Assembly: GCF_007754425.1 (NCBI RefSeq)
Contig: NZ_CP037452.1
Location: forward strand, 6,365,164-6,429,163
Length of the DNA: 64,000 nt
Direction of reading: 5' to 3'
Source of the DNA: Gimesia fumaroli
GTDB taxonomy: Bacteria; Planctomycetota; Planctomycetia; Planctomycetales; Planctomycetaceae
Under the pieces are notes generated by a model, which was given only the letters and a program-made list of their open reading frames with translations, had not been told where the DNA came from and did not search any database. Below, piece by piece: positions 30,839-40,684 of this stretch (the stretch's first letter is position 1; each line of letters begins with the position of its first letter). The position numbers and the translations under genes are program-made.

Positions 30839-30894
30839 GCATCCCATTCCGGTAGAGTTTACTCATTCAATTCGAAAAATTGAGATCTGATATT

Positions 30895-31605
30895 ATGACA
30901 CAACTTTCCAATTCCATCTCACGCTCGCAGGTAGAACAACTGGTTCGTCAGGCATTATCACAACAACTTGGAGCCGGCCCTGCTGCCGCACCTTCGTCTG
31001 CCCCGAACCCGCTTGTGGTGAATATCTCCGCCCGGCACATTCATCTTTCACAGGAACACCTGGAAGTCCTGTTCGGCAAAGGAGCCGAACTCGAAGTGCA
31101 GAAAGATCTGTACCAGGAAGGATACTTCGCTGCGACTCAGACCGTCGCGGTTGTCGGTCCCCGCCGCCGGATGATTCCCAACGTACGCGTCTTAGGTCCC
31201 TGCCGTGGTGATACTCAAGTGGAACTCGCTTTTACCGATACGATCTCACTGGGACTCGACGTTCCCATTCGCATCAGTGGCGACCTCAAAGGCACACCCG
31301 GCTGTGTGCTGATGGGTCCCAAAGGCGTCGTTGAACTCGAATTCGGCGTCATTCGTGCCGCCCGCCACGTACACATGTCGCCCGCCGACTGTGCTTACTA
31401 CGGCTGCTCCAACGGCGATAACTTACATCTGAGAATTGAATCGGCAGGTTGCACGACCGTCTTGGAAGACGTCGTTGTGCGTGAAAACCCCGAAGTCAAA
31501 CTCGAAGTCCACATCGATACCGATGAAGGCAACGCAGTCGATCTGGATCATGCCACTTCCGTGAAGCTGTATGTTCCGGAATCGTGTAAATGCAAACATA
31601 GCTGA
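30895..31605 (+). CDS. pduL: PduL-type phosphate acyltransferase (microcompartment cargo)
   Basis: A 236-residue enzyme that converts acyl-CoA and phosphate to acyl-phosphate, releasing CoA inside the shell. The two PduL half-domains carry the zinc-site motifs SARHIHLS and AARHVHMS. The first about 22 residues ([20 protein letters not shown]) form an amphipathic helix followed by an Ala/Pro-rich linker, a typical encapsulation peptide. Start ATG 30895 chosen over TTG 30880. It recycles the CoA used by the aldehyde dehydrogenase encoded downstream and hands acyl-phosphate to the acetate kinase homologue. Confidence 0.94.
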
Positions 31606-31710: not shown

Positions 31711-32010
31711 ATGGCGAAAGCAATGGAAGCCCTGGGAATGGTGGAAACAAAAGGGCTGATCAGCCTGATTGAAGCCGCCGATGCAATGTTGAAAGCGGCC
31801 AACGTACAGATGATTGGCTGGGAAAAAGTGGGTAGTGGCCTGGTAACCGCATTTGTTGTCGGTGACGTTGCTGCTGTGAAAGCTGCTGTCGACGCCGGTG
31901 CTGCTTCTGCCAGCAAAGTAGGCGAAGTCGTGAGCGTTCAGGTCATTCCACGTCCTCACGAAGAACTGGCAAACGTTCTGCCAGGTAAAACTTCTGCTGC
32001 CAAGAAATAA
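31711..32010 (+). CDS. microcompartment hexameric shell protein (BMC-H), first copy
   Basis: A 99-residue single BMC-domain protein ([21 protein letters not shown] to [14 protein letters not shown]), forming hexamers that tile the shell facets. The GSGL segment at the pore position and the PRPHEEL C-terminal segment match PduA/CsoS1-like proteins. AAAAGGAGAA precedes the ATG. The next shell gene is 139 bases downstream; the two products differ through much of their length. Confidence 0.96.
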
Positions 32011-32149
32011 TTACGGGTTATGAACATTGACGGCTGAAATTCCTGAAACTGATCGTAACGACGATGATCATAACCAGCTGACGTTCAACTGGTATGAAGC
32101 AACAGGCAAATCAGCTCAACCCATCACAACTAAACAGATCGAGGACAAA

Positions 32150-32419
32150 ATGAGTTCTGAAGCTATTGGTCTTATTGAAACTAAAGGTCTGGTTGCTCAA
32201 ATCGAAGCATCCGACGCCATGCTGAAAGCTGCCAACGTGACTCTGGTTGACCAGATTCAAATCGGCGGTGCATTTATTACCACAGTCATTCAAGGGGATA
32301 TCGGCTCAGTTCGTGCAGCCGTTGACGCTGGTGCTGCTGCTGCTTCTCAAATCGGAGAACTGGTTGGCGCACACGTAATCGCACGCCCCTCTGAAGGTCT
32401 GATGGCCAACTTTATCTAA
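32150..32419 (+). CDS. microcompartment hexameric shell protein (BMC-H), second copy
   Basis: An 89-residue BMC-domain protein from ATG 32150, preceded by GAGGA. The frame is open back to 32027, but those 41 extra residues are polar and unlike the family, so the longer start is rejected. Core ALGLIETKG-type sequence ([27 protein letters not shown]) and pore segment IGGAF differ from the first copy, which could give the mixed shell two pore chemistries. Confidence 0.95.
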   Translation: MSSEAIGLIETKGLVAQIEASDAMLKAANVTLVDQIQIGGAFITTVIQGDIGSVRAAVDAGAAAASQIGELVGAHVIARPSEGLMANFI

Positions 32420-33760: not shown

Positions 33761-34072
33761 ATGTTTATAGGACGTATTACCGGTAGCGTTGTTTCGTCTC
33801 AGAAAGTCGAAACGATGGTCGGCCAGAAACTGTTCATTGTCGAACCGTTGCGAGTCAACGAAAAAGACCAGAGTGATCTGACTCCCACCGGACGATCGTT
33901 TATTGTCGTCGATACTGTGGGAGCCGGGCAGGGTGAAATCGTCTTGTGTGTGCAGGGGTCATCAGCCCGCTTCACGCCCGAAACCAAAACACTGCCCATC
34001 GACGCCGCCATCATCGGCATCGTCGATCAGGTTCACGTGAATTCAAAAGAGATTTTTAACTCGAAGGATTAA
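33761..34072 (+). CDS. pentameric vertex shell protein (BMC-P, EutN/CcmL), first copy
   Basis: A 103-residue EutN/CcmL-family protein (MFIGRITGSVVSSQKVETMVGQKL; VVDTVGAGQGEIVLCVQG; DAAIIGIVDQV). Pentamers cap shell vertices. A TTTACAGGAG ribosome-binding site precedes it. Its TAA overlaps the ATG of the following membrane-protein gene by one base (TAATG), suggesting coupled translation. Two more BMC-P genes follow in the operon. Confidence 0.95.
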   Translation: MFIGRITGSVVSSQKVETMVGQKLFIVEPLRVNEKDQSDLTPTGRSFIVVDTVGAGQGEIVLCVQGSSARFTPETKTLPIDAAIIGIVDQVHVNSKEIFNSKD

Positions 34073-34617
34073 TGAGCGTTCTGTACAGGAATCAAACGAT
34101 GACCAACCAACCACCACAAATAACTCCACAGCAACGCCTGATGATGATGACCGTCATCTGGCTGGCGTTGATCGTGGGTGTGGTTACGTTTGGTGTCATC
34201 ATTGGGTTCATGGGTCAGGAAAAAGCCGCTGGTGACGATTTACCAATCATCACTTATCTGGGAATCGCCATGGCGGCACTGATGCTGGTACTACGCACCT
34301 TTGTTCCCAATCTGGTGGCACGGAATCTGTTTCGCCAGACAATGGAAAAGGTCAAAGCAGAAGGAAATCAGGATGAGGAAGAGATCCTGGGAACTTACTA
34401 TCAGATTTTCACAACTCGATTGATTATCGGACTGGCATTACTGGAAGGTGCCGCGATGCTCAACCTGGTTGCCATCTTGATCGAAAATCAGAAGCTGCCT
34501 TTTGTCGTCGTCGGCATTTTACTGCTGGTCATGATTGCTTCGGTACCAACGAAATCAAAACTGGACGGATGGATTCGCAACCAGATGGAAAACTATAACC
34601 TGGAACACCAAAACTGA
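34072..34617 (+). CDS. four-helix membrane protein within the microcompartment operon
   Basis: A 181-residue protein with about four hydrophobic helices (WLALIVGVVTFGVIIGFM; LGIAMAALMLVLRTFV; IGLALLEGAAMLNLVAIL; VVVGILLLVMIASV) and a charged C-terminus. It starts at ATG 34072, overlapping the BMC-P stop by one base; ATG 34099, with its own AGGAA site, is the alternative. Flanked by shell and aldehyde dehydrogenase genes on the same strand, it is presumably co-transcribed. Family not recognised. A membrane protein inside such an operon may anchor the compartment or move substrate, but this is inference. Confidence 0.8.
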   Translation: MSVLYRNQTMTNQPPQITPQQRLMMMTVIWLALIVGVVTFGVIIGFMGQEKAAGDDLPIITYLGIAMAALMLVLRTFVPNLVARNLFRQTMEKVKAEGNQDEEEILGTYYQIFTTRLIIGLALLEGAAMLNLVAILIENQKLPFVVVGILLLVMIASVPTKSKLDGWIRNQMENYNLEHQN

Positions 34618-34685: not shown

Positions 34686-36116
34686 ATGCAGTCGACTGAA
34701 GAAGCCATTCGCAGTGTCGTACAGGAAGTGTTATCACAACTCAATAATCGAGGCGGCTATGGTTCCGCTTCCTCCACATCACAGCGTGATGGTGACTGGG
34801 GTGTCTTCAGTTGTGTTGACCAGGCTGTCGCTGCGGCCAACGATGCACAGAAACAACTGCTCAACTCCACGCTGGAAGACCGGGCCAAGGCACTCGAAAT
34901 TGTGCGTCAGATCTGTGATACGCAAGCCGAAGAACTGGGCCGCATGGAACTGGAAGAGACCAAAATCGGTCGTCTCGATCATAAAATTGAAAAGCTGCAC
35001 TTAATCAAAAGTATTCCCGGCATGGAATTCATGAAGACGGAAGCCGTCTCCGGTGATAACGGAGTCAGCCTGACCGAATACGCTCCCTTCGGCGTCATCG
35101 GGGCCATCACTCCCGTCACACACAGCCTGCCCACACTGGCCTGTAACTTCATTAACATGGTTGCCTCCGGTAATACACTGGTCGTCAATCCGCATCCCGG
35201 CGGAGCCAAAATCGCCTGCGAAGGGGTTCGACGTTTCAATCAAGCCATCTATCAGGCAACTGGCTTACAAAACCTGGTGACGATTTTGGGAACTCCCACG
35301 CTGGAATCCGCCGATGCCATCTTCAATCATCGCGGCGTGCCTTTGCTGTGCGTTACCGGTGGACCTGGTGTGGCTCGTGCCGCATTGGCTGCCAAGAAAC
35401 GAGCCATTGTCGCCGGACCGGGTAACCCGCCCGTCGTTGTCGATGAAACAGCGGACCTGGAGAATGCGGCCAAATCGATCATCATCGGAGCGGCTTACGA
35501 TAACAACCTGCTGTGTATCGGCGAAAAAGAGGTCTTCGCCGTCGACAGCATCTTCAATGAACTGATGTCCGCTATGGGACGGCATGGCGGATATCAGTTA
35601 AACGATCAACAGGTCGCACAACTGACATCACTGGCATTCTCGCCTCCAACAGAACCGGGCGGACATGCAGTACTCAACCGTGACTTGATCGGCAAAGACG
35701 CCTCTGTCCTCGCCGGCATGATCGGCGTCAGCGTTCCTGCAGGTACACAGTTACTCTACGGCGAAACCGACACGAACAACCCGTTCGTGCCCGAAGAACA
35801 AATGATGCCGTTCGTGCCCTTCATTCGCTGCCGCAATGCCGATCACGGAATCGAACTGGCCAAAGAATTCGAACACGGATTCCGACACACCAGTATGATT
35901 CACTCACGAAATATCGAAACGATCACCAAAATGGGCCGCATCATGGATACCACGCTGTTCGTGCAGAATGGTCCTTGCGGTGCTGCTCTGGGTAACGGCG
36001 GCGAAGGTTATGGGTCCTTCAGTATCGCGACGCCGACCGGAGAAGGAGTCACCAATCCGATGACATTCACACGCTTCCGTCGTTCTACAACTGTAGGACA
36101 TTTCAGAGTCATTTAA
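34686..36116 (+). CDS. pduP: CoA-acylating aldehyde dehydrogenase (PduP-like), microcompartment cargo
   Basis: A 476-residue enzyme that oxidises an aldehyde to acyl-CoA using NAD. The first about 20 residues ([20 protein letters not shown]) form an encapsulation helix joined by a Gly/Ser linker. The core has the aldehyde dehydrogenase fold ([50 protein letters not shown]) and the catalytic Cys in [12 protein letters not shown]. No C-terminal iron-containing domain. It would convert lactaldehyde to lactyl-CoA, which PduL accepts. Confidence 0.94.
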
Positions 36117-36189: not shown

Positions 36190-36450
36190 ATGTTGACAGG
36201 ACGAGTCATAGGACGAGCAACCGCAACGGCAAAACATCCCAGTCTTGCCGGCTGGCGACTATTGCTGGTGCAAACACTCGATATCCAAGGCAACGCAGAA
36301 GGATTTCCTGAGCTGGTCATCGACGAACTGGGGTGCGGCAAGGGTGATACTGTCCTGCTCACGTCAGATGGTGCCGCAGTCCGGGAAATGGTGGGAACCA
36401 ACAATACCCCCATTCGCTGGGCCACCATGGGTGTCATTGATCAAGAATAA
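36190..36450 (+). CDS. pentameric vertex shell protein (BMC-P), second copy
   Basis: An 86-residue EutN/CcmL-family protein (MLTGRVIGRATATAKHPSLAGWRLL; VIDELGCGKGDTVLLTSDGAAVREM; ATMGVIDQ). The sequence is nearer the third copy (37174-37455; shared KHPSL and ELG segments) than the first, so the first may differ in vertex position or timing. Confidence 0.94.
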   Translation: MLTGRVIGRATATAKHPSLAGWRLLLVQTLDIQGNAEGFPELVIDELGCGKGDTVLLTSDGAAVREMVGTNNTPIRWATMGVIDQE

Positions 36451-36479: not shown

Positions 36480-37151
36480 ATGCAGTTTTCAGAAGAGTTA
36501 GTCAATCAGGTAGTCGCCAATGTTTTGTCGACCCTCTCCCAACAGGGGCAGGGCGGACAAACAACGGGCAGCGTACCACCTGTCACACCGACTGGCGCTT
36601 CCATAACTTTATCAGAAAAAGTCATCACCGCAGATCTGCTGGCAGAAAAGGCCAAGGGGCATTCCTCGGTCGGCATCGCCGCGGGATCACTGTTGACGCC
36701 GTCTGCCAAAGATTATCTGCGAGAATTTCAAATCAGCGTGCATCGCGCCACGTCGTCTGCTGCTCCGAAATCAGGGCAGGGGACTCCCTGGCGGGCGATT
36801 GTGCTTTCCAACTCAATGGCTGTTGAAAACGCGCTGACAACCATCGAACAACAGACCGGCGCACGCTGGTCACAAGAGCTGAGTTCTTCACTGGAAGAAT
36901 CCGTCAAGGATGCAATCAGCAGTTTATGTCGTGCCGATGCGGCAGGAGTCATCCTGTTTGCCTCCACGGCAGAAAAAGCAGCCTGTCTGGCTAACCGAAA
37001 CGATAGAGTTTCTGCGGCCGCCATTCAGGATGTGAACCATTTACGAACCGTCATCACACAAATGAGCCCGAATCTGATTTGTGTGAACCCGGAACAGAAA
37101 TCGTTCATGGAACTAAGAAACCTGATGAAGGTCTTTGTCAACGCAGGTTAG
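36480..37151 (+). CDS. RpiB-like protein with encapsulation helix (microcompartment-associated, unknown)
   Basis: A 223-residue protein from ATG 36480; an in-frame GTG lies one codon upstream. Residues 1-22 (QFSEELVNQVVANVLSTLSQ) match the helices on PduL, PduP and the aldolase. A linker and the segment ITADLL..LLTPSAKDYLRE (about 49-81), resembling a motif of EutT/PduO-associated proteins, come next. Residues about 105-223 (LANRNDRVSAAAIQDVNHLR..NLICVNP) resemble the C-terminal half of the RpiB/LacA sugar-phosphate isomerase fold. I cannot see a complete active site. It could be an isomerase, a dead relative that binds sugar phosphate, or a scaffold. Confidence 0.8.
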   Translation: MQFSEELVNQVVANVLSTLSQQGQGGQTTGSVPPVTPTGASITLSEKVITADLLAEKAKGHSSVGIAAGSLLTPSAKDYLREFQISVHRATSSAAPKSGQGTPWRAIVLSNSMAVENALTTIEQQTGARWSQELSSSLEESVKDAISSLCRADAAGVILFASTAEKAACLANRNDRVSAAAIQDVNHLRTVITQMSPNLICVNPEQKSFMELRNLMKVFVNAG

Positions 37152-37173: not shown

Positions 37174-37455
37174 ATGAAAATCGCAGAAGTCATCGGAAAA
37201 GTGACGCTTTCACGCAAGCATCCCAGTCTGGATGCTGCCCGGTGGGTGATTGCGATTCCCTTAAAGAGCGATGAGCTCAACAGCAGGAAAAAAAAGAAAA
37301 CGGAACCATTCATTATTTACGACGAGCTGGGTGCAACACCGGGCTGCCAGATTGCAGTCAGTGAAGGAGCAGAAGCAGCCGCTCCTTTTCACCCTGATGT
37401 AAAACCGATTGACGCCTATGTGTCAGCGATTCTGGATCAGGTCGAAGTTTACTAA
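37174..37455 (+). CDS. pentameric vertex shell protein (BMC-P), third copy
   Basis: A 93-residue EutN/CcmL-family protein (MKIAEVIGKVTLSRKHPSLDAARWVI; IIYDELGATPGCQIAVSEGAEAA; AYVSAILDQVEVY). A basic stretch RKKKKTEP in the middle is unusual for the family. It starts 22 bases after the RpiB-like gene. Confidence 0.94.
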   Translation: MKIAEVIGKVTLSRKHPSLDAARWVIAIPLKSDELNSRKKKKTEPFIIYDELGATPGCQIAVSEGAEAAAPFHPDVKPIDAYVSAILDQVEVY

Positions 37456-37511: not shown

Positions 37512-38402
37512 ATGTCAAATCAATGGAACAGTGGAATTCACGACCGGAATCTGAAAGAAGAGATCTGCGAAATCGGACGTCGCGTATACAACAAAGGATT
37601 TGCAGCGGCCAACGACGGAAATATCTCGATTCGTGTCGGCGAAAACGAAGTCCTCTGCTCACCCACCATGATCTGCAAAGGCTTCATGAAACCCGAAGAC
37701 ATCTGTGCCGTTGACCTCGACGGAAACCAGATTGCCGGTACCCGTAAACGAACCAGTGAAATCCTCTTGCACCTGGCGATCATGAAAGAACGCCCCGATG
37801 TCAAAGCCGTCGTTCACTGTCACCCGCCGCATGCAACCGCCTTCGCTGTTGCCCGCGAGCCGATTCCACAGTGCGTACTGCCCGAAGTCGAAGTCTTCAT
37901 GGGTGAAGTTCCCATGGCGCCTTACGAAACACCGGGCGGACAGAAATTCGCTGACACCGTGGTACCGTTCCTCAAAGGGGGCACGAACACCATCATCCTG
38001 ACCGGACACGGCACCGTCACCTTCGGTAAATCTCTGGAAGACGCTTACTGGAAAACGGAAATTCTGGATGCGTACTGTAAAATCCTGTTGTTGTCCAAGC
38101 AACTCGGACGCGTCAGTTACTTCACGGAAACAGAAACCCGTGAACTGCTTGACCTCAAGAAGAAACTCGGTTTCGATGATCCCCGCTTCCACGTGGAAGA
38201 CTGTGATTTGTGTGGCAACAGCGCCTTCCGTGATGGTTACAAAGAAGGAATTCCGCAGCAGAAATCATTTGAACCTGCTCCCAGCTACCCGGGATACCTG
38301 CAGAAGCCATCGACCGAAGCCACTCCGACTTCAAACGGCGGTAACTCTGAGCAGTTGGTCAAAGCGATCACCGAACAGGTCATGTCAGCACTGGGTAAAT
38401 AA
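37512..38402 (+). CDS. class II aldolase (fuculose/rhamnulose phosphate type), microcompartment cargo
   Basis: A 296-residue enzyme. It has the class II aldolase/adducin zinc site VHCHPPHATAF (His-x-His), a third His in LTGHGTVTFG, and a Glu in PEVEVFMGEV. After the catalytic domain an extension with CDLCGNSAF, a Pro/Thr/Ser-rich linker and a C-terminal helix (SEQLVKAITEQVMSALGK) is the encapsulation peptide. It would cleave a deoxyketose-1-phosphate to dihydroxyacetone phosphate and lactaldehyde. No sugar isomerase or kinase is in the window, so fucose versus rhamnose is not settled by this locus. Confidence 0.92.
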   Translation: MSNQWNSGIHDRNLKEEICEIGRRVYNKGFAAANDGNISIRVGENEVLCSPTMICKGFMKPEDICAVDLDGNQIAGTRKRTSEILLHLAIMKERPDVKAVVHCHPPHATAFAVAREPIPQCVLPEVEVFMGEVPMAPYETPGGQKFADTVVPFLKGGTNTIILTGHGTVTFGKSLEDAYWKTEILDAYCKILLLSKQLGRVSYFTETETRELLDLKKKLGFDDPRFHVEDCDLCGNSAFRDGYKEGIPQQKSFEPAPSYPGYLQKPSTEATPTSNGGNSEQLVKAITEQVMSALGK

Positions 38403-39466: not shown

Positions 39467-40684
39467 ATGGAAAAATCACTTGATCGAAAAATTCAATCGA
39501 TCCACGCTGATCCCAGCGGCTCGAAAGAGTTTATCATCGCCGATGCCAAGGATGCGGATATGGCCTTCGGCATTGGCGCTCCCGGCCTGTCGCCTGAGCG
39601 GCACGACCAGGAACTCAAATACAAAACGCTGGCTGAATACCGACAACAGATCCGTGAAGTCATCCAGCAGGAAGTGGTCGACATCGTTTTGATGTCCGCC
39701 AGTACCAGCGAAAAACTGACGATTGAAGAACGCCTGTTCGACAATTCGCCGATTACCCCCGCCGCTCGCGCCAACGATACGACCGACGTACATGTGCCTC
39801 GCGGCGGAAAGATTCATATCCCGGCGGCGAAGCCGTTTCGCTCGGCCAGCCTGGATCATATTCAATGCGGACATCTCGACTGCAAACCGGAAGAACGGGC
39901 CTACGGCGCTGACCTCGGCCTGTATTCGGTGACGTTCAATAATAATCTCGAAGATGATCTCGAAACCTTAGAACGCTATAAAGAATTCCGCGAAGAAGCC
40001 GAACGTAAAAAGTTCCGTCACTTCCTGGAAATTTTTGATCCCAACACCAGCAACGCTGTCGCCTCCGACGTCGCTCCCGGATTCATTAACGACCTGATCG
40101 CCCGGACTTTGGCCGGCGTCACTTCAGCCGGACGGCCTACGTTTCTGAAGATGGTTTATCATGGACCTCGGGCCATGGAAGAACTCGTCGCCTACGATCC
40201 GCATTTGATCGTCGGCATTCTGGGTGGTTCCGCGGGAACGACTCTCGATGCCTTCCAGTTAATCTATGATGCAAAAAAATATGGTGCCCGCGTGGCGCTG
40301 TTCGGTCGCAAGATCAATCAGGCCGAGCACCAGCTGGCGTTCATCCAATTCCTGCGGTTTCTGGTCGAAGACAAAATCCAACCGGTCGAAGCCGTCCAAG
40401 CCTATCACGGCGTACTGCAGGAACTGGGGATCAAACCGCATCGCGAACTGGAAGTCGATCTGACTTATCAAACCGCCGTAATGAGCTATGGCGGCGAAGA
40501 TGGGAAAACATTCAGCTTCCCCACAAAGAAAGCAAACGGGAAACCGGCAGCGAAATCATCCGGCAAAACAACTTCGTCTCAGCCCCCAACCAGTGGTAAC
40601 GGGGCTCCCGATTTTGCTTCGATGAATTCGGAACAGCGACTGGCCTACCACCAGAATCGCCTGAACCGCATGTTTGGTGAATAA
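39467..40684 (+). CDS. class I aldolase-like TIM-barrel protein with C-terminal extension
   Basis: A 405-residue protein at the end of the microcompartment run, 75 bases after the dehydrogenase. Residues about 225-285 (FLKMVYHG.. LIVGILGGSAGTTLDAFQLI..YGARVALFGRKIN) closely resemble the lysine Schiff-base and phosphate-binding strands of class I aldolases (FbaB/DeoC/LacD type); Lys228 is the candidate. An unusual 110-residue N-terminus precedes it. A Lys/Ser/Thr/Pro linker (350-378) leads to a last helix (FASMNSEQRLAYHQNRLNRMFGE) that could be a targeting tail. Family not named with certainty. Confidence 0.72.
   Translation: MEKSLDRKIQSIHADPSGSKEFIIADAKDADMAFGIGAPGLSPERHDQELKYKTLAEYRQQIREVIQQEVVDIVLMSASTSEKLTIEERLFDNSPITPAARANDTTDVHVPRGGKIHIPAAKPFRSASLDHIQCGHLDCKPEERAYGADLGLYSVTFNNNLEDDLETLERYKEFREEAERKKFRHFLEIFDPNTSNAVASDVAPGFINDLIARTLAGVTSAGRPTFLKMVYHGPRAMEELVAYDPHLIVGILGGSAGTTLDAFQLIYDAKKYGARVALFGRKINQAEHQLAFIQFLRFLVEDKIQPVEAVQAYHGVLQELGIKPHRELEVDLTYQTAVMSYGGEDGKTFSFPTKKANGKPAAKSSGKTTSSQPPTSGNGAPDFASMNSEQRLAYHQNRLNRMFGE

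Follow-up and report, generated by a model that had tools for sequence, protein, structure and literature searches.

Microcompartments of the PVM type carry out the breakdown of fucose and rhamnose, sugars of plants and algae, and a class II aldolase is their signature enzyme. A DeoR regulator, acetate kinase and a lactate/malate dehydrogenase are also found with them (PMC4207490, PMC8217296). SPU-type microcompartments have the enzymes RpiB and a DeoC-type aldolase in common (PMC8217296). PduM, found at low abundance in the core of the Pdu organelle, carries an N-terminal signal; when it is lost, core and shell come partly apart (PMC12108088, PMC9132943). According to its 2025 description, no protein outside the Pdu organelles is known to share sequence homology with PduM (PMC12108088). 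For another type of microcompartment, Axen et al. considered that a nonfunctional enzyme may be a scaffold (PMC4207490). The papers of this paragraph are cited from excerpts. In the excerpts of the microcompartment literature that were searched, no description of a dead RpiB in PVM loci was found.

The RPB gene and its operon

The window, which is the whole stretch of DNA analyzed here, covers 64,000 nucleotides of Gimesia fumaroli. An open reading frame at 36480-37151 on the + strand starts with ATG and encodes 223 amino acids plus a stop; an in-frame GTG lies three bases 5' of the ATG. We use our own label, RPB, for the product of this gene. The features of the locus and of the protein are as follows.

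30880-31605, + strand: PduL-type phosphotransacylase (PF06130, E 1.8e-69)
31711-32419, + strand: two BMC-H shell genes (PF00936 search of own genome)
33761-34072, + strand: BMC-P (EutN/CcmL) shell gene, the first of three (PF03319, E 3.1e-29)
34686-36116, + strand: CoA-acylating aldehyde dehydrogenase (AldDH) with an N-terminal EP helix (NF011927, E 9.5e-177; EP HMM)
36190-36450, + strand: BMC-P (EutN/CcmL) shell gene 5' of RPB (PF03319 search of own genome)
36480-37151, + strand: RPB, an EP, a TP module and a catalytically degenerate protein of predicted RpiB fold, 223 aa (ORF, fold, residue loss)
36492-36542, + strand: N-terminal helix of encapsulation-peptide (EP) type, residues 5-21 (AlphaFold2; related helices in AldDH and PduL)
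36600-36749, + strand: TP module, residues 41-90, with KVITADLL and LLTPSAKDYLREFQISVHR (TIGR02536 match over residues 46-88; TP HMM)
36783-37148, + strand: domain of predicted RpiB fold over residues 102-223, which has lost the catalytic residues and the C-terminal Arg arm (model, fold matches, alignment)
36984-36998, + strand: CLANR, residues 169-173 (C169, N172 and R173 invariant in A3, the 70-row RPB alignment)
37174-37455, + strand: BMC-P (EutN/CcmL) shell gene 3' of RPB (PF03319 search of own genome)
37512-38402, + strand: class II aldolase, the PVM signature enzyme (PF00596, E 2.5e-50)

The operon runs in the order DeoR, PduL, two BMC-H, AckA, BMC-P, AldDH, BMC-P, RPB, BMC-P, class II aldolase, LDH. 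Class II aldolase, AldDH, PduL, AckA, LDH, DeoR, BMC-H and BMC-P are all found together, which is in line with a fucose/rhamnose-type (PVM) microcompartment operon. RPB lies between two BMC-P genes, and its placement inside a microcompartment operon by the preliminary description of this DNA was correct. Among the matches listed, the closest named loci are mostly from uncultured Gimesia (aldolase 95-96%). The host genome is a single contig of 7.70 Mb with two canonical RpiB genes elsewhere, and a search of plasmid records with the RPB protein gave no match.

Two further proteins are encoded at the locus. Between BMC-P and AldDH, at 34072-34617, lies a 181-residue protein that is membrane-like by eye and has no Pfam match above cut-off. 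Relatives that are 24-38% identical occupy the same place in many same-family loci among L031-L090, and no BLAST match was found in the loci of other families in that set. The protein that ends the operon (39467-40684, 405 residues) is 54-73% identical where found across the families of the class. It has no Pfam match at E<=1, and its C-terminus weakly resembles LsrF/DhnA-type class I aldolases (E 9e-6).

The distribution of RPB was followed in a class sample of 248 genomes, with RPB called at profile E<1e-6. Counted regardless of relatedness, RPB was present in 171 of 196 genomes with BMC-P and in 0 of 52 without; the best RPB-profile match in these 52 genomes, 1.2e-6, is in the canonical RpiB range. 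From an independent aldolase search, 80 of 484 confirmed loci were used, all planctomycetal, with some genomes also in the class sample. Both flanking BMC-P genes were present in 73 of these loci and RPB lay between them in 71, while a further two had RPB and BMC-P3 only. The remaining five had no RPB (contig ends or a lone aldolase), and in two of the genomes concerned (L103, L145) RPB lies elsewhere. That RPB belongs with the microcompartment is well supported.

The shell genes are dispersed in two genomes of genus g3. In the single-contig genome G021 (L038), the BMC-H pair and three BMC-P genes are at four distant places and RPB is at a fifth, with all of them retained. In G018 (L050), the BMC-P genes are on separate contigs, and the BMC-H pair, the three BMC-P genes and RPB are again all present.

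Architecture, fold and active site

An AlphaFold2 model of RPB from 70 sequences (mean pLDDT 87.2) has a helix at residues 5-21, a disordered linker at 24-38, a small alpha/beta module at 42-89, a linker, and an alpha/beta domain at 104-222 with block means of 92-98. The same layout was obtained in a second model (mean pLDDT 80.7), built for a divergent member with 27% identity, which has RpiB as its best matches.

To characterize the two N-terminal parts, helix and TP HMMs were scanned against a set of 80 proteins from the window and four microcompartment loci. The RPB-family helix HMM also scores the N-termini of the AldDH (E 0.0013) and PduL (0.0034) of the window, and the cargo helix had indeed been described as shared. 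The aldolase C-terminus reached 0.048 only, below a chance-looking internal match elsewhere in the set (0.017), so a cargo helix is not demonstrated for it. The TPSAKDYLRE segment, which had been likened to EutT/PduO-associated proteins, aligns at E 1.5e-4 with the C-terminal part of NCBIfam TIGR02536, which 17 of 28 relatives also match at E<=0.1. This match gives 21.4 bits over residues 46-88 only and does not reach the TIGR02536 cut-off of 152.6 bits, which is for the whole protein. At the same segment, a few of the 28 relatives match the models of EutQ (3), EutT (2) and, weakly, PduM (4). Among the 80 proteins, the TP HMM of RPB found the C-terminus of the GRM flavoprotein of Rahnella (E 1e-8), the C-terminus of TIGR02536 of C. 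difficile (E 6e-7) and the N-terminus of EutT (E 1.9e-5).

Structure prediction and comparison with RpiB had been set as the test of an RpiB/LacA-like C-terminus, and an RpiB fold was predicted rather than a fold unlike it. All 43 Foldseek matches of RPB at E<=1e-3 are RpiB, LacAB or the ketol-isomerase 4u8f, which we take to be of the RpiB-type fold family. VIA-align, run on residues 100-223 only, filled ranks 1-23 with the RpiB/LacAB/4u8f set at Z scores of 18.4 to 13.9, and no other fold scored above 9.9; RPB is 8-17% identical to these solved structures. When the RPB family profile was compared with the PDB, the first 18 of 20 matches were RpiB/LacB (best E 1.6e-5, weakest of the 18 0.1) and the remaining two were the EutC N-terminus. 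Profile-profile comparison with planctomycetal RpiB gave E 2.4e-7 and a probability of 93%. PF02502 scores RPB at 12.7 bits, below its gathering score of 24.7; of 28 relatives, 13 match it at E<=0.1, the best of them at 1.1e-7. The RpiB fold predicted for the C-terminal domain is well supported. ISPD_C and Nitroreductase matches in Pfam and a dUTPase match in the PDB were weak and absent from most relatives (ISPD_C in 3 of 28), and they were judged to be chance.

The catalytic set of RpiB, in E. coli numbering, is presumably an Asp-His pair, a Cys-Gly-Thr-Gly-x-Gly loop, His99-Asn100 and Arg133/Arg137. When 28 canonical planctomycetal RpiBs and 70 RPB rows were merged into one alignment, nine near-invariant positions were scored: Asp8, His9, Gly66, Gly68, Gly70, His98, Asn99, Arg132 and Arg136. 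All 28 canonical proteins have Asp8, His9, Gly66, Gly70, His98, Arg132 and Arg136, and 27 have Gly68 and Asn99; at neighboring loop positions, Cys65 is present in 23 and Thr/Ser67 in 28. Gly68, Gly70, Asn99 and Arg136 occur in none of the 70 RPB rows. Other letters of the set are scattered among these rows: Asp8 in 3 and His9 in 1 (both calls are less secure than those for the loop and for the His-Asn pair, as the N-terminal half of the domain aligns weakly and hhalign covered the C-terminal 80 columns only), Cys65 in 4, Gly66 in 13, Thr/Ser67 in 5, His98 in 7 and Arg132 in 4. Each canonical RpiB keeps 8 or 9 of the nine positions (n=28), whereas 45 of the 70 RPB rows keep none, 22 keep one and 3 keep two. 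Still kept in RPB are Asn76 and Lys/Arg77 (70/70), Ala83 (65/70), Asn102 (58/70) and Arg82 (56/70); N172 and R173 of RPB correspond to the Asn-Lys/Arg of RpiB in the alignment.

RPB therefore shares with canonical RpiB and LacA-LacB (PF02502) the predicted fold and the Asn76-Lys/Arg77 pair, but it has lost the catalytic residues and the C-terminal Arg arm and carries the EP and TP parts in addition. The RPB family lacks the RpiB catalytic residue set (Asp-His, glycine loop, His-Asn, Arg pair), and the conclusion that the RpiB active site is not conserved is well supported. Since the aligned RPB rows do not retain these positions, the isomerase reading is strongly disfavored. Judged by its residues, RPB acts very improbably as an RpiB isomerase, and an active isomerase was rejected on the loss of catalytic residues in this comparison. 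Of the roles named in the preliminary description (isomerase, sensor or assembly factor), the last would fit best.

In a PF02502 sample of family f2, canonical RpiB at E<=1e-5 was found in 0 of 14 genomes, and BMC-P genes were found in 14 of 14.

Likely relation to SPU-type RpiB and comparison with PduM

In a phylum sample of 119 genomes, 17 members outside the class of the window matched RPB at E<=1e-7. When 17 RpiB-domain ORFs were read there, 12 had a TP module, and the others were plain RpiBs or had no detectable TP. All 12 TP-RpiB proteins have Asp8, His9, Asp41, His98, Asn99, Arg132 and Arg136, and all have N-terminal helices by eye. The gene order BMC-P, X, BMC-P, BMC-P was found in 10 of the 12 loci, with no BMC-P match near the other two. 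At L267, the one locus with its neighbors scanned, BMC-P, RpiB, BMC-P, BMC-P, DeoC and nucleoside phosphorylase follow in succession, which matches the SPU type.

Most canonical RpiBs have Cys in the catalytic loop. The 12 TP-RpiB proteins (among L260-L273) all have Asp at the Cys65 position. From these residues, the Asp in the loop of the SPU-type RpiB could possibly be a catalytic variant.

SPU-type RpiB (pfam02502; Sutter 2021, Axen 2014, both cited from excerpts) therefore resembles RPB in having an EP-like helix (by eye), a TP module and an RpiB domain in that order, and in the place of its gene between BMC-P genes (10/12). It differs in that Asp8, His9, His98, Asn99, Arg132 and Arg136 are kept, and it stands beside a DeoC aldolase at the locus scanned; RPB, with its site lost, stands beside a class II aldolase (PF00596). 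An RpiB in a PVM operon is explained by this comparison, since an RpiB of the same architecture and position exists in another microcompartment type. Because architecture and gene order are alike, RPB likely shares ancestry with the encapsulated SPU-type RpiB, and the simplest reading of RPB is as a dead relative of this enzyme.

The tree is no proof of common descent. Built on RpiB domains in 58 rows (18 RPB, 12 TP-RpiB, 28 canonical), it split canonical RpiB from RPB plus TP-RpiB with support of 98/91, and the RPB branches are very long. An AU test did not reject RPB joining canonical RpiB (p 0.45). This leaves some room for another origin, which would be compatible with an organizer role: a canonical RpiB could have acquired EP and TP separately within the PVM lineage, with no common origin with the SPU type. 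We consider this rather improbable, because PVM and SPU systems have the same three-part order and both have the gene among BMC-P genes, and the best trees put the dead family with the BMC-type RpiB.

The TP module also leads to PduM and two other proteins. Like RPB, PduM (TIGR04493) has an N-terminal EP-type helix and a gene that adjoins a BMC-P gene, and its C-terminus may be weakly TP-like: the last 43 positions of the PduM profile match the C-termini of the GRM flavoprotein and TIGR02536 weakly (0.0019 and 0.016), and one PduM sequence matches the RPB TP model weakly (E 0.1). Unlike RPB, PduM has a different middle part and the order EP-domain-TP instead of EP-TP-RpiB, with no significant full-length match. 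RPB gave no match to TIGR04493 (cut-off 50 bits) even at E<=1. Direct homology to PduM was dropped as a candidate; hhalign aligned the EP helix only, with a probability of 1.5%. The TIGR02536 ethanolamine protein and the GRM flavoprotein share the TP module and an N-terminal helix (by eye) with RPB, but their TP module is C-terminal and their core domain is another one. The PduM, TIGR02536 and GRM flavoprotein genes each lie directly between PduL/EutD and BMC-P (one locus read each). In a cut operon of Enterococcus, the TP protein (weak, E 0.012) is followed by eutJ and not by BMC-P. TP alone does not make an adaptor, as it is also present on EutT, an enzyme, and as the Enterococcus TP protein precedes eutJ. 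Judged by these matches, the TP module may weakly link RPB to PduM.

Proposed function of RPB and the alternatives

The median dN/dS within the genus of the window (12 sequences for each gene) is 0.149 for RPB, 0.031 for AldDH, 0.033 for the aldolase, and 0.069 and 0.072 for the flanking BMC-P genes; the RpiB-fold part of RPB gives 0.115. RPB is under purifying selection, yet its dN/dS is the highest of the five genes compared.

The protein is also eroded in parts of the class. In all five f11 loci read (L234-L238), EP plus TP remain and the RpiB domain is gone. In L084 and L085, only the RpiB-like domain is left (148 and 151 aa, start chosen by hand), still between BMC-P genes. Eleven loci with both flanking BMC-P genes have no RPB (L239-L248, L252), and the BMC-P genes abut in these P2-P3 intervals. 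Several of them have an otherwise whole operon in view, and some are cut by contig ends. L244 and L252 apparently come from the same genomes as L172 and L174. No second RPB copy was found in the L172 and L174 genomes; the matches there were confined to ORFs of canonical RpiB (E 2e-4 and 6e-4) and an EP-type match that lies in one AldDH-sized frame. Since parts of RPB are present in some loci and missing from others in which the enzymes persist, a role as a pathway enzyme is unlikely.

Two other forms were observed. L250 and L251 (genus g97) still have EP and TP, but their RpiB-like part is further decayed and the Asn-Arg motif is missing from it. In L013 (G234), a congener, RPB is split over two overlapping frames, either by a natural frameshift or by a sequencing error.

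The explanation that we favor, by a modest measure, is that RPB is a PVM microcompartment pseudoenzyme of SPU-type ancestry that acts as a PduM-like organizer of core and shell. An ancestral encapsulated RpiB with the order EP-TP-RpiB would have lost catalysis when the chemistry of the organelle moved to fucose and rhamnose. RPB would be held at the enzyme core by its EP helix, while its TP module and dead RpiB domain would make protein-protein contacts that couple the core to the pentamer-containing shell, as PduM does (PMC9132943, PMC12108088). The fold, the residue loss, the co-occurrence and the sharing of modules are supported by the analysis, and encapsulation, scaffolding and PduM-like action are inferred by analogy with PduM. 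On this basis, a core-shell organizer is the most likely role. The loss of EP and TP in some members that keep the RpiB domain (L084, L085) speaks against it. The role is not essential everywhere, since RPB is absent from several complete operons.

The erosion could instead mean that RPB is vestigial, a relic of an encapsulated RpiB of the past, which now adds little and is on its way to being lost. The high dN/dS relative to the other four genes, the 11 intervals without RPB, and the half-proteins (EP+TP-only in 5/5 f11 loci and RpiB-domain-only in L084 and L085) would speak for such a relic. We regard it as unlikely all the same, given a dN/dS of 0.115 within the genus for the RpiB-fold part, the presence of RPB in 171 of 196 BMC-P genomes, and its retention in the two g3 genomes despite their dispersed shell genes.

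RpiB folds bind sugar phosphates. The dead pocket of RPB could accordingly bind one of these, such as fuculose-1-phosphate or DHAP, and modulate the aldolase or the shell, and the conserved Asn-Arg...Arg-Ala stretch would fit a regulator of this kind. The phosphate-binding residues of RpiB, which we take to be His9, the glycine loop and the C-terminal Arg pair, are not kept in RPB, and the RpiB domain is missing from the five f11 operons read, so that ligand binding is a less plausible role, and an improbable one. An isomerase or other enzyme with a rebuilt active site, for which the isomerase fold and the invariance of Cys169 in A3 might be cited, is very improbable, as the RpiB catalytic positions are not conserved, RPB or its RpiB domain can go while the rest of the operon stays, and the host has its two canonical RpiB genes.

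If RPB is a core-shell organizer, a conserved unknown of the fucose/rhamnose microcompartment would be explained, and a natural series would be at hand that leads from an active encapsulated enzyme to a dead scaffold, to half-proteins and to loss. PduM, for which the 2025 description knows no homology beyond Pdu (PMC12108088), would gain a possible shared module in other organelles, and the joining of core to shell would become testable across microcompartment types. A broader proposal, which we put forward tentatively and with considerable doubt, is that RPB, SPU-type RpiB, PduM, TIGR02536 and the GRM flavoprotein may form one class of metabolosome core-shell adaptors. Each would carry EP and TP on an interchangeable, often borrowed, Rossmann-like enzyme body, with its gene beside a pentamer gene. 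The PVM version would be an enzyme fossil turned scaffold, and TP would be the adaptor common to all of them, which may read the pentamer or vertex.
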